A DNA stretch of 64,000 bases from Lysobacterales bacterium (GTDB lineage Bacteria > Pseudomonadota > Gammaproteobacteria > Xanthomonadales > SZUA-36): NCBI GenBank assembly GCA_013001885.1, contig JABDLD010000033.1:64709-128708 (forward strand), written 5' to 3'. The notes under the pieces are model-generated. The model had not been told where the DNA came from. It made no database searches and worked only from the letters and a program-made list of their open reading frames with translations. A program made the translations under genes and the position numbers. This document shows, in pieces, positions 44,183-48,181 of this stretch (positions are counted from its first letter, which is position 1; every line of letters starts with the position of its first letter).

Positions 44183-44928
44183 ACGCGAAATGTATTTATC
44201 CGGACTGGCCGGCGCCTGACAATGTGCGTGGGTTTACCACGACGCGCGGCGGCGGCGTCAGCAGCGGATGCTGGTCGAGCTTCAACCTGGGTGACCACTG
44301 CGGAGATGATCCGGCTGACGTGAAATCGAACCGGGCGATGCTGGATGCCCTTTTGCCGTCACCGGCTAACTGGCTGCGCCAGGTGCACGGCACCCAGGCT
44401 CTGAAGATCCCGGGCAAGCAAGAAACGATTCCGCAGGGTGACGCTCTGGTTACAGTCACGCCGGGCCAGGTTTGCGCGGTTCTTACAGCGGATTGCCTGC
44501 CCGTATTCCTGTGCAACCGGCGGGGTGACCGCGTGGGAGTCGCGCATGCCGGCTGGCGCGGTCTGGCGAACGGCATTTTGCCGGCCGCCGTCCGTGCCAT
44601 GGACGAGGATCCGGGCGAATTACTCGCATGGCTGGGGCCCGCGATCGGTCCGCAGGCCTACGAGGTGGGCCCGGATGTCGCTGCGGCCTTCGCCGGCGAG
44701 TTTCCCGCGGGATTTTTGGCCAGGGGCGATCGTTTCCTGATGGATATTTATGCCCTTGCCCGGCTGAAATTGGCGGCCGCGGGGGTCCGGTCCGTCTATG
44801 GCGGCGGATTCTGCACGTTTACCGAATCCACCCGGTTTTTTTCCTACCGCAGGGATGGCGTTACCGGGCGGATGGCGAGCCTGATCTGGTTCGACCGGGG
44901 ACCGGAAGATCAGTTTGCGGGTGCATAA
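44170..44928 (+). CDS. pgeF: Peptidoglycan editing factor PgeF (YfiH / LACC1 family)
   Basis: 252-residue member of the multicopper-oxidase-like YfiH family. In E. coli it clears wrongly made UDP-MurNAc-L-Ser, while related LACC1 enzymes act on purine nucleosides. Family motifs are FTTTRGGGVSSG near residue 22, NWLRQVHGTQAL, LTADCLPVFLCNRRGDRVGVAHAGWRGL with metal-binding Cys and His, LGPAIGPQAYEVG and the C-terminal FFSYRRDGVTGRMASLIW. It overlaps rluD and is likely cotranscribed with it. Its 3' end overlaps the convergent cytochrome gene by 19 bases. Confidence 0.94.
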   Translation: MRKLNAKCIYPDWPAPDNVRGFTTTRGGGVSSGCWSSFNLGDHCGDDPADVKSNRAMLDALLPSPANWLRQVHGTQALKIPGKQETIPQGDALVTVTPGQVCAVLTADCLPVFLCNRRGDRVGVAHAGWRGLANGILPAAVRAMDEDPGELLAWLGPAIGPQAYEVGPDVAAAFAGEFPAGFLARGDRFLMDIYALARLKLAAAGVRSVYGGGFCTFTESTRFFSYRRDGVTGRMASLIWFDRGPEDQFAGA

Positions 44929-47120
44929 CGCTCCTGCAGCAGCCTGAGCTTTTCCACTTCGCCCAGCTGTTGATAATAGCTGGCGAGCGCGGAGACCAAG
45001 TCCCGGTCGCCGGGGTAGGTTTGGAGCACCGATTCGAGGTTTGTGACGGCCTGACCTCGTTTTCCGGCCTCCCACAACGCAACGGAATAAACGTAGTTGT
45101 AGCGTGCGTTGATCGGCACGTCCCGTGCAGCGATTTCCAGGTGCGGAAGCGCTTTTGCCATATCCCCCTGCCTGATCCGGAGCAGCCCCATCGCGTGCTG
45201 AACAGATGCCTGGCCGGGAGCCATTTTGATGGCTCTCAGCAGCAACGGCTCAGCCTGCGGGTCCAGGCCGTTTGCGCGGTAGAGGTCCGCCAGGTTCAGC
45301 ATGGCCGGTACATAGGCCGGCGCAAGCTGGAGCGCACGCCGATAAGCCTTTTCAGCTGCAACCATGTCACCGGTTGAACTGAAAAACAGGCCCAGGTTCA
45401 TCTGGTCTTCCGGCATGTCGGCATTCAGCTGCAGGGACTCGAGATACTCTTGCCACAGTGTTTTGAGTTCAGCGGCCGAAGCCGGGGGCAGCTGATCTGC
45501 CGGTATTCCGGAAAGTTGCCGGGCGACGGCGAGGCGTACTGCTCTGCTTTTATCACTGATCAGGTCCCGCAGCATCGCGTATCTTTGGGCTTCCGGCACC
45601 CAATCCATCGCACGAACTGCAGACGCCTTCAACAACGGATCCTCCGTAAGCAGCAGTTGCTGAATCCCGGCCAAGGCCTCTTGCGAAGGATAATTCTGCG
45701 CGGCGAGAATCGCGCTGGCCCGAAGCATGGCCGGCTGCGCGGGCTGGTTGGCCAGTGCCAGCAAACCCGGCAAAGCGCCCGGCTGACCCGACCAGGCCGC
45801 ATTCAGTATGGCTGCATGACCTGCGCGAACATCGCGCGACACGCCCCAGGATGCCAGCGCATCAGCGGCCCACTGAGCGTCCTGGTCCTGGTGGCACTGG
45901 TTACAGGAATTGGGCACGCCGAGGGCCAGGGTCAGGCGTGGTTCCGGGATGCGGAATGAGTGATCCCGGCGGTCATCGACCACCATGTAGGTTTTTGCCG
46001 GCATGTGGCAATTCACGCAGGCTGAGCCGGCGTTGTCAGCTGCATGGTGGTGATGTTCCGGCCTGTCGAACACGCTGGCGGAATGGCACTGTGCGCACAG
46101 GGAATTGTCGTTCGCGAGAAGCCGGTTGCTGTGCGGATCATGGCAATTCGTGCAGACCACGCCTGCCTGGTGCATTTTGCTCTGGATGAATGAACCGTAA
46201 ACGTATACTTCATCGTTGATCTGCCCATCGGGGAAATACATCCCCGGCTCGACCAGGGTTAACCGGTACTGGTCGTTGAACGGCTGACCGGCCTGGTAGT
46301 GCGCAATTTCGCTGCGCCTGGAATGACAGGCCGCGCAGGTTTCTACCTGGACGGTCGGCTGTTTGCCGTCGACTCGCCGCATCGTGCCGGACGAATGGTC
46401 TCCGACCGGTGCGAAAGCACCGCTGTCGGCGAGAGAAAACGAAAAGCCACGGCCGGCTTCCTGCTGGTCGCCCGTGGTCCAATCGACATGGCCGGATGCG
46501 GGTCCGTGGCAGGCCTCGCAGGCAACGTTGACCTCTTCCCAGGACGTGTTGTAGCGGTCGGTCGTGCCGGAGTAGTTTTTCTCCAGACCGGTCGAATGGC
46601 AGACGGCGCAGCGGGAATTCCAGTTTTGCAGAGACCCCGTCCAATGGACGGCGTCCTCGTGGGTGACCGGCTCACCCGGATACAGGTGAATCCAGCGCTG
46701 CCCGCCCTGGCTTTGCGGCCGGCTATCCCAGACGATACTCAACGCCTGCAGTCTGCCGTCCTCAAACGGAACCAGATACTGTTGCAAAGGGTAAAAGCCG
46801 AAGGTGTAGGCGATTTCAAATTCCTGCAGTTCACCGAGCCGGTTGTCCGTTTCCACAAAGTACTTGCCGCCCTTTCGATAAAAACGGCTGGTAACGCCGC
46901 CATACTCAAACGTCTGGTCGGAGAAATTTCCGGCGACATTTTCAGGCGTTGCCGGCAGCATGGCCTGGTAGTGATGAGACTCTGTCCAGGATGCATAAGC
47001 CTGCTCATGGCAGGCCTCGCATTGCTTACTGCCCACGAAGGATTGCGCCAGCGCACTCGCGGGCATGCAAGCAATCAGAAGCAGGGACAGTTTGAATGAT
47101 CGGAGCCAAATGGTATTCAT
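44910..47120 (-). CDS. Periplasmic octaheme cytochrome c with HEAT and TPR repeats
   Basis: From the ATG at 47120 (GGAAAA upstream) the protein has 736 residues and a signal peptide (LSLLLIACMPASALA). Eight CXXCH heme-binding motifs lie at about residues 30-407: CEACH, CAVCH, CEACH, CAACH, CTNCH, CAQCH, CVNCH and CNQCH. Several have histidines nearby that could be distal ligands, for example HHHHA. HEAT-like repeats at about 420-530 and TPR repeats at about 560-730 follow. The layout matches cytochrome c-554-related/paired-CXXCH proteins with TPR tails, many uncharacterised. It probably moves electrons in the periplasm; the substrate is unknown. It follows the aldolase gene by 29 bases. Confidence 0.88.
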   Translation of the reverse strand: MNTIWLRSFKLSLLLIACMPASALAQSFVGSKQCEACHEQAYASWTESHHYQAMLPATPENVAGNFSDQTFEYGGVTSRFYRKGGKYFVETDNRLGELQEFEIAYTFGFYPLQQYLVPFEDGRLQALSIVWDSRPQSQGGQRWIHLYPGEPVTHEDAVHWTGSLQNWNSRCAVCHSTGLEKNYSGTTDRYNTSWEEVNVACEACHGPASGHVDWTTGDQQEAGRGFSFSLADSGAFAPVGDHSSGTMRRVDGKQPTVQVETCAACHSRRSEIAHYQAGQPFNDQYRLTLVEPGMYFPDGQINDEVYVYGSFIQSKMHQAGVVCTNCHDPHSNRLLANDNSLCAQCHSASVFDRPEHHHHAADNAGSACVNCHMPAKTYMVVDDRRDHSFRIPEPRLTLALGVPNSCNQCHQDQDAQWAADALASWGVSRDVRAGHAAILNAAWSGQPGALPGLLALANQPAQPAMLRASAILAAQNYPSQEALAGIQQLLLTEDPLLKASAVRAMDWVPEAQRYAMLRDLISDKSRAVRLAVARQLSGIPADQLPPASAAELKTLWQEYLESLQLNADMPEDQMNLGLFFSSTGDMVAAEKAYRRALQLAPAYVPAMLNLADLYRANGLDPQAEPLLLRAIKMAPGQASVQHAMGLLRIRQGDMAKALPHLEIAARDVPINARYNYVYSVALWEAGKRGQAVTNLESVLQTYPGDRDLVSALASYYQQLGEVEKLRLLQERYAPAN

Positions 47121-47149: not shown

Positions 47150-48181
47150 TCACGCTGTCAACGCGCTACAGAGCGCTTCTGTTTGCGACTCATCGGTGCA
47201 GTAAGAGAACACGAAGCGCGCCAGGTCGTCGCGGCCCGGCCAGGTCAAAAACTGCACTCCGGCATCTTCCAGCCGCTCGAAGCCCCCCGGCGACCAACGG
47301 ACAAAAACTTCATTGGCATGGACCGAATATTCAAGGCTGGCTTCCGAATGGTTGCTGACCGCGTCGGCAAACCGAGCGGCCTGGCGGTTGGCGTTGCCCG
47401 CCATCTGCAGCCACAAATTGTCGTCGATATAGGCGAGCAACTGGGCCGAAACGAATCGCATCTTGCTGAGCAAATGCCCGGAGCGCTTGCGCAGCCGTTC
47501 CGCTTTTTCCTGCAGCCCGTGGTCGCCAAAAAACAGCAGTGCCTCGGCGGCTAAACAGCCATTTTTGCTCGCGCCGAACGAAAGCATTTGCACGCCCACG
47601 CGCCAGGTGATGTCGCCGGGGTGACAGGCCAGACTGGCGACGGCGTTGGCAAATCGAGCGCCATCCATATGGGTGGCCATACTGTGCAGCCGGGCTTTTT
47701 CGCATATGGCGCCGACTTCATCAGGACGATAGACTGTGCCGGACTCCGAGCTCTGGGTAATGCTCACCGCAGACGGATGAAAACTGTGGACTCCATGGCC
47801 TTCGTTTGCGCGAACCAGACGGTCCATATCCTCAGCCGTGAATTTCCCGTCCGGACCGTCCACCGGCACCAGTCGCAGCCCGTTTCCATAAAACTCCGGC
47901 GCCCCGCCTTCATCGTTGAGAATATGCGCGTTGCGGTGGCAGTAGACCGAGCCCCAGGGCGGCGTCACGGCCGCGAGCGCGATGCTGTTGGCTGCGGTGC
48001 CGGTGCTGATGGGGAGCACGGTGGTCTGCGTGTCGAACAACTCTGAGAAGGCATCATCGAGTCGCGCTGACCAGGGGTCGTCCGCATAGGCCCAGGCGGC
48101 GCCGTGATTGGCCTGTTCCAGCGCGGCAAGGATGGCCGGAGCCGCCGGCGATTCGTTGTCACTTCTGAAATTGAGTTCCAT
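47150..48181 (-). CDS. ltaE: Threonine-aldolase family pyridoxal-phosphate enzyme
   Basis: 343-residue fold-type I PLP enzyme of the beta-eliminating lyase/threonine aldolase family. These enzymes typically cleave L-threonine or L-allo-threonine to glycine and acetaldehyde. Visible features are FRSDNESPAAPAILAAL at the N terminus, the ISTGTAANSIALAA PLP-phosphate region (about residues 60-73), the HMDGARFANAVA segment with the PLP-pairing Asp, and LSFGASKNGCLAAE with the Schiff-base lysine. The ATG at 48181 is preferred; the frame extends one codon upstream with TTG. Substrate specificity cannot be read from sequence, so the symbol is tentative. The cytochrome gene lies just downstream. Confidence 0.82.
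   Translation of the reverse strand: MELNFRSDNESPAAPAILAALEQANHGAAWAYADDPWSARLDDAFSELFDTQTTVLPISTGTAANSIALAAVTPPWGSVYCHRNAHILNDEGGAPEFYGNGLRLVPVDGPDGKFTAEDMDRLVRANEGHGVHSFHPSAVSITQSSESGTVYRPDEVGAICEKARLHSMATHMDGARFANAVASLACHPGDITWRVGVQMLSFGASKNGCLAAEALLFFGDHGLQEKAERLRKRSGHLLSKMRFVSAQLLAYIDDNLWLQMAGNANRQAARFADAVSNHSEASLEYSVHANEVFVRWSPGGFERLEDAGVQFLTWPGRDDLARFVFSYCTDESQTEALCSALTA

Follow-up and report, generated by a model that had tools for sequence, protein, structure and literature searches.

What is the task of an exported bacterial cytochrome that carries eight hemes ahead of a long tail of helical repeats? The question is raised by a gene on the reverse strand of the window, a stretch of 64,000 nucleotides from contig JABDLD010000033.1 of a Lysobacterales bacterium. 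On translation its open reading frame (44910..47120, 736 residues) runs from an ATG at 47120 to a stop at 44910, and a mechanical call allows an alternative GTG start at 47153. The first-pass annotation of this DNA had described an export signal, eight CXXCH motifs and then helical repeats. This architecture is real: a hydrophobic N-terminal signal was recognised by eye, the rest by translation and by Pfam, where Cytochrome_C554, Cytochrome_C7, HEAT_2 and several TPR families match above their cut-offs (31.4 bits against 27.7 for PF13646; 46.2 bits against 25 for PF14559). The repeats had been put at about 330 residues; in the confident model they cover about 300, from about residue 430 to 736. 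None of the 25 NCBIfam models listed passes its cut-off on the protein. We propose that it works in the periplasm as an octaheme oxidoreductase, a member of the OcwA/MccA/NrfA superfamily, and that it serves sulfatases with an active-site cysteine (Cys-type), most likely as a maturation factor; we hold this proposal to be about evenly balanced between right and wrong.

The protein does not stand alone. A scan of named genomes gave at least 592 candidate stretches, among which at least 437 relatives were confirmed, and the best 80 of these were used for comparison. Their hosts are alpha-, beta- and gammaproteobacteria, Planctomycetota, Aminicenantes, Gemmatimonadetes, Bacteroidales and others, many of them metagenome-assembled genomes. 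Eight CXXCH motifs in nearly constant spacing are found in 79 of these 80 relatives from other genomes (L064 shows seven), so the octaheme architecture is not a product of chance. Judged by sequence, the octaheme HEAT/TPR proteins are a uniform, widespread and uncharacterised family across several phyla. An octaheme match at 1e-30 is present in 32 of 39 genomes of the window's own taxonomic family, and 146 plasmid records carry the family.

When the genes around the 80 loci were clustered, type I sulfatases were the one outstanding neighbour family, a sulfatase-cluster gene lying within 10 kb of the cytochrome in 23 of the 80; some loci are short contigs. Thirty-five loci span at least 20 kb, and PF00884 was run at 1e-20 against their complete genomes to estimate, from each genome's sulfatase count and size, how many of them should have a sulfatase within a 22-kb stretch. 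The expectation is 1.37 of the 35 loci, whereas a sulfatase lies beside the cytochrome (within 10 kb, counted from the gene clusters) in 14 (P about 9e-13). In the genomes of Rhodoplanes, Marinobacter sediminicola and Zoogloea, the single PF00884 match at this threshold is, by its coordinates, the neighbour of the cytochrome. The sulfatases concerned are of one kind: among 34 cluster members, loci of the window's family included, 32 have the Cys motif, two were not read and none is Ser-type. Nine plasmid loci, chosen for variety rather than at random from the 146 records, all have an annotated sulfatase within about 3 kb of the cytochrome (two from Rhizobium and one each from Sinorhizobium, Methylosinus, Methylocystis, Alisedimentitalea, another Rhodobacteraceae, Pseudoalteromonas carrageenovora and Vibrio). 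The Vibrio copy (L290, 8001-9171) is apparently broken, its match being split into four pieces, and an arylsulfatase is still close to it. On a FastTree tree of 138 rows, the sulfatase-neighbour label is scattered, with 18 changes once the Pseudomonas rows are left out; it was assigned by the author from locus maps, and L019, L023 and L025 are unlabelled although a sulfatase-cluster gene lies within 7 kb. The first-pass annotation, which left the substrate of the enzyme unidentified, had missed this tie, and the tie supplies a candidate. Genes for HAD-type phosphatases and/or DUF3604 proteins also recur near the octaheme gene (L044, L053, L057, L147, L286), mostly in sulfatase clusters; a specific pathway role for them was rejected because they are present in only part of the loci.

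Sulfatase neighbours could also accompany a redox enzyme of sulfated-compound breakdown, acting on the sulfatase product (an alcohol, phenol or sugar) with no need to touch the sulfatase. The DUF3604 and HAD genes of some loci would suit such an enzyme, as would the polysaccharide-type locus of sulfatase, GH16 and TonB receptor on the P. carrageenovora plasmid. Planctomycete-specific-type cytochromes likewise adjoin sulfatases in Verrucomicrobia, as a passage of PMC5615132 has it; that these are the same proteins was rejected, as they form another family. However, the sulfatases beside the octaheme gene vary in motif and length and include subfamilies only about 30% identical, the co-occurrence persists when cytochrome and sulfatase genes are far apart, and a catabolic enzyme does not predict that FGE or anSME, the known maturation enzymes, should be present where the cytochrome is absent. 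A catabolic role is thus unlikely.

That type I sulfatases become active only once a cysteine or serine is turned into formylglycine, for which two enzyme systems are known, is set out in a passage of PMC3920027. The two systems, the formylglycine-generating enzyme (FGE) and the anaerobic sulfatase-maturing enzyme (anSME), were followed together with the cytochrome in 198 Pseudomonadaceae genomes, the cytochrome being called at 1e-60 and AtsA-like sulfatases at 1e-30. The cytochrome is present in 83, the sulfatase in 72 and both in 67 (Fisher 6e-31). A PF03781 score does not suffice to call an FGE, since matches in G237 and G211 that lack the cysteine pair outscored two true FGEs, and therefore the paired-cysteine motif was read in PF03781 matches at 1e-30 or better, few sulfatase-negative genomes being covered. 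By this motif nine genomes are FGE-positive, and in the 28 other cytochrome-plus-sulfatase genomes with PF03781 matches at 1e-30 none of the matched loci has the pair. An anSME scores above its cut-off in seven genomes. Many Pseudomonas genomes also encode a PF03781 protein of about 280 residues with a single-cysteine RGGGC ending, which is not an FGE (L200, L202-L206, L219, L315, L316, L318, L319, L322, L323, L326, L327, L331, L332).

Neither FGE nor anSME was found in 57 of the 72 sulfatase genomes, and all 57 have the cytochrome. The five sulfatase genomes without the cytochrome (G162, G173, G180, G184, G203) each have FGE and/or anSME, and none of the 72 lacks all three. With three genomes that have Ser-type sulfatases only left out, the counts are 60 with the cytochrome only, five with cytochrome and FGE, four with FGE only and none with neither (Fisher 1.5e-4). 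Thus, for one and the same class of sulfatase, FGE is present where the cytochrome is absent, which is what an alternative maturation factor would lead one to expect and what a catabolic partner hardly explains. In loci chosen for closeness and mapped by tblastn, all 15 sulfatases lying up to about 5 kb from the cytochrome and all seven by FGE are Cys-type, and all seven by anSME are Ser-type. One of these 15 sulfatases, that of G197 (L261, 4856-6499), has the unusual active-site motif C-S-V-S-R. Direct reading of the Cys type was confined to fetched loci, and the other AtsA-like matches count as Cys-type because they are homologous. AtsA-like sulfatases by the cytochrome and by FGE are 44-50% identical, and in G157 and G212 the large sulfatase next to the cytochrome shares 47% identity with the FGE-adjacent one of G208. 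In G197 one sulfatase adjoins the cytochrome and another adjoins FGE; in G148 each of the two cytochromes has a sulfatase of its own within 2 kb. A periplasmic site fits a maturation role, because a hydrophobic N-terminal segment, judged by eye, is also present in five of the nine FGEs read in Pseudomonas.

Beyond Pseudomonadaceae, in 35 cytochrome-bearing genomes of many phyla, a full FGE (over 430 bits, cysteine pair read) is present in two, the next match having 148 bits and no pair, and an anSME above cut-off also in two. Thirty of the loci matched by the FGE profile were read; L220 and L221 are true FGEs, and L229 has the motif in an unrelated-looking frame. The FGE profile scores no higher than 103 bits in the window's genome and 22 relatives. 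Of the eight PF00884 matches in the window's genome, four have Cys motifs and in none was a Ser motif read; no FGE was found there, its PF03781 matches containing no cysteine pair. By its sequence content it therefore fits the pattern of cytochrome in place of FGE, anSME not having been searched there.

Several observations weigh against a maturation role. Ten sulfatase genomes of Pseudomonadaceae have FGE or anSME as well as the cytochrome. The replacement argument hangs on the five cytochrome-free genomes, one of which, G180, has a Ser-type match only, and related genomes are not independent, so that the P values make the evidence look more independent than it is. Among the 83 cytochrome-bearing Pseudomonadaceae, 16 have no AtsA-like sulfatase. 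Within 8 kb of the cytochrome, a different but full Cys-type sulfatase is encoded in three of the 16, two have a Cys-type match that is short and weak (29-30% over about 160 residues), and 11 have none. No sulfatase is seen within 10 kb in 21 of the 35 long loci, and in G069 (L102) the chromosome with the cytochrome has no PF00884 match at 1e-20. For the window gene itself, none of the eight PF00884 matches of its genome is on its contig (C52), and by the FastTree labels its subclade has no sulfatase beside the cytochrome; the same role for this copy would be an extension from its relatives.

A further point of this kind comes from a second branch in the window's taxonomic family (L030-L035), which has an N-terminal membrane anchor, recognised by eye, and a different heme spacing. 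In the wider set, all eight loci of this branch have Rieske and/or cytochrome b genes next to the octaheme gene: L149, L152, L153 and L157 have both, L150 and L155 (at contig ends) Rieske only, and L151 and L154 cytochrome b only. The families of the L153 neighbours were confirmed, the cytochrome b being ExtP-like. From these gene contexts, the anchored octaheme protein with Rieske and cytochrome b is an apparent alternative bc-type complex, and this points to respiratory electron transfer. The window protein might then be a plain periplasmic electron carrier, or an acceptor of quinol-derived electrons from a Rieske/cytochrome b complex, its tail docking respiratory partners; electron carriage is, moreover, common among multiheme cytochromes. 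But the anchored branch is a separate clade (five rows) with its own heme spacing, no Rieske or cytochrome b partner genes were seen beside the window gene, and the sulfatase tie would be left unexplained, which makes a role in carriage unlikely. In other relatives (L137, L140, L141, L144, L145) the octaheme gene adjoins a MoxR/DUF58/VWA/BatD-like operon; this was rejected as a partner, since it is beside the octaheme gene in only some relatives.

The fold of the heme domain indicates what chemistry may be available. AlphaFold2 models were made of the whole protein, from 81 sequences, and of the heme domain separately (mean pLDDT 92.2 and 92.9); a fold search with the whole protein was filled by TPR proteins, and therefore the heme domain was folded alone. 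The model has the fold of OcwA, the nonaheme protein of Thermincola potens (6i5b), with Z 21.8 and 3.0 A over 326 residues in VIA-align and a Foldseek E of 1.3e-12. It also matches an undecaheme S-layer cytochrome (6qvm, Z 14.0), more distantly the octaheme sulfite reductase MccA of Wolinella (4rkm, with Z 9.4 and 4.8 A over 286 residues) and, at Z about 6, NrfA proteins. A profile search against sequences of the Protein Data Bank also finds OcwA, at E 2e-22, with the eight motifs in order with hemes 1-4 and 6-9; residues 210-285 of OcwA are absent from the displayed alignment, and both the pairing with hemes 6-9 and the loss of heme 5 are read from the order. The heme part is thus, by model and profile, a member of the NrfA/c554/MccA/OcwA superfamily, as the c554-like assignment of the first-pass annotation had anticipated.

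The OcwA report (PMC6703420), in its passages on the hemes, describes hemes 1, 3, 4, 6, 7 and 8 as bis-His, heme 9 as His/Met and hemes 2 and 5 as open, raises a possible loss of heme 5 in MccA-type octahemes, and gives OcwA and MccA a common beta-sheet domain. By its heme set, the window protein is probably of the MccA kind, because heme 2 is kept and the heme that by order is the fifth of OcwA is apparently lost. It is the opposite of the rule given in the same passages for hydroxylamine oxidoreductase (HAO), in which heme 2 is lost and heme 5 kept; compared through the OcwA alignment only, this speaks against HAO. No HAO is among the best 50 fold matches listed, which excludes nothing. Across the 81 sequences the only invariant histidines outside the motifs are H50, H211, H330, H356, H359 and H387, six for eight hemes, and the invariant methionines are M316 and M379. 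All six histidines fall on OcwA histidines in the profile alignment, but H356 falls, by numbering offset, on the first His of the pair by which OcwA caps heme 5, the one missing here, and this leaves the ligand of one heme questionable. The simplest reading, unproven, is six bis-His hemes, one His/Met heme and an open heme 2. Heme 2 is likely to be open because it aligns with a heme that is open in OcwA according to PMC6703420. The first-pass annotation had asked whether one heme lacks a distal His; with this alignment and only six invariant histidines, that is likely.

OcwA differs in having nine hemes, in being a terminal reductase at the cell surface and in ending in a three-helix bundle instead of HEAT/TPR repeats. 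With MccA the window protein has in common eight hemes, a related fold, the missing counterpart of OcwA heme 5 and the beta-sheet insert; only the window protein has the HEAT/TPR tail and lacks cysteines outside CXXCH in its mature part. MccA binds copper through cysteine at its active heme. An OcwA-like reduction of nitrite, hydroxylamine or sulfur oxyanions, or a detoxifying activity, is suggested by the fold of OcwA, MccA and NrfA and by the reduction of nitrite and hydroxylamine, though not sulfite, that a passage of PMC6703420 records for OcwA. Yet the sole cysteine beyond the motifs, C18, lies within the signal, no nitrogen- or sulfur-oxyanion respiration gene was recognised by eye in the recurring neighbour clusters, where no systematic search was made, and the sulfatase tie again goes unexplained. 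A reductase of this type is quite unlikely.

The tail may offer a link to the sulfatase. In OGT-type TPR superhelices that bind extended peptides, asparagines stand at the places of N575 and N609, which are conserved here in 62 of 80 and 68 of 79 sequences. That the tail docks the heme domain to a partner, as first suggested, is plausible on this conservation. In the mechanism envisaged for a maturation factor, the sulfatase, newly exported and still unfolded, would be held by the HEAT/TPR tail, and its active-site cysteine (C-x-P/A-x-R) would give up two electrons to the putatively open heme 2. Oxidation of the cysteine would yield formylglycine and sulfide, and the remaining seven hemes would relay the electrons to the periplasmic respiratory chain. 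The family would then add to FGE and anSME, to which it is unrelated, a third class of sulfatase-maturing enzyme, one that works with heme in the periplasm and is coupled to respiration; its tail would bind the unfolded sulfatase and its open heme would make formylglycine. This full proposal is possible but rather more apt to fail than to hold.

The protein might act on sulfatases without making formylglycine, as a folding helper or as a redox guard that keeps the active-site cysteine reduced for another enzyme. The TPR tail and the pairing with Cys-type sulfatases would suit such a part, and TPR proteins that handle unfolded heme-protein substrates exist, namely CcmH/NrfG. But in the 57 Pseudomonadaceae genomes with cytochrome and sulfatase in which neither FGE nor anSME was found, a helper or guard would need a further unknown maturation enzyme, and we see only a slight chance of it.

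A maturation factor of this design would resemble FGE (PF03781) in standing beside homologous Cys-type sulfatases. FGE, however, is a copper enzyme of an unrelated family and the window protein a heme protein; PF03781 is not among the 22 Pfam families that the latter matches at E up to 1. The anSME (TIGR03942) likewise accompanies sulfatases, but is a radical SAM protein and, in the loci read, is found with Ser-type sulfatases only. MauG is a multiheme c-type protein that acts on residues of a partner protein; the window protein would resemble it in this, but MauG has two hemes, another fold and another target.

In the window, the octaheme gene follows a threonine-aldolase-like gene of the same strand at a distance of 29 bases, and its 3' end shares 19 bases with that of a convergent YfiH-like gene. 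The genes around it are presumably those for SucCD, NAD synthase, BamD-like, RluD-like, YfiH-like, threonine aldolase, HrpA-like and SpoT-like proteins, to judge by their sequences. The description of the octaheme gene as the least core-like in this part of the window holds in so far as these neighbours are of housekeeping type; against it stand its retention across most of the family's genomes and a gene order conserved in three relatives of the genus (L129-L131). The features of the protein are collected in Table 1.

Table 1. Features of the octaheme gene and its product, in window coordinates (residue numbers in brackets)
Feature	Position	Strand	Basis
Octaheme c-type cytochrome with HEAT and TPR repeats, 736 residues	44910..47120	-	Translation; Pfam
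N-terminal export signal (1-26, end approximate)	47043..47120	-	By eye; helix 3-17 in model
Heme domain (27-430), predicted OcwA/MccA-like fold	45831..47042	-	AlphaFold2 model; VIA-align
Beta-sheet insert (54-145) between hemes 1 and 2	46686..46961	-	Strands in model
Heme 1 motif CEACH (34-38)	47007..47021	-	Translation
Heme 2 motif CAVCH (171-175), likely the open, catalytic heme	46596..46610	-	Aligned with OcwA heme 2
Heme 3 motif CEACH (201-205)	46506..46520	-	Translation
Heme 4 motif CAACH (262-266)	46323..46337	-	Translation
Heme 5 motif CTNCH (323-327)	46140..46154	-	Translation; by order the sixth heme of OcwA
Heme 6 motif CAQCH (342-346)	46083..46097	-	Translation
Heme 7 motif CVNCH (368-372)	46005..46019	-	Translation
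Heme 8 motif CNQCH (406-410)	45891..45905	-	Translation
HEAT repeats (465-536, best HEAT_2 stretch)	45513..45728	-	PF13646
TPR repeats (573-704), with conserved N575 and N609	45009..45404	-	PF14559 and other TPR families; conservation

Benjdia et al. are said to have presented, in 2007, the first evidence for a third prokaryotic maturation system, in E. coli. The maturation machinery of E. coli is called elusive in a passage of PMC6189696, a paper that also credits S. meliloti with a putative FGE, and part of PMC6923384 tells of one marine sulfatase whose production in E. coli failed, apparently through aberrant maturation of the cysteine. Among the matches listed in open-licence full text, no paper was found that links a multiheme cytochrome to sulfatase maturation. 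The octaheme family is thus a concrete and widespread candidate for an additional maturation system, though probably not the one of E. coli, in a collection of whose genomes the octaheme gene has no DNA match (a DNA search can miss distant proteins). If the proposal is true, it would explain how sulfatases are activated in many environmental bacteria, could help in the production of difficult marine sulfatases and would add heme to aldehyde-tag chemistry. It would also mean that, in these bacteria, an oxidative protein modification feeds electrons into the respiratory chain.

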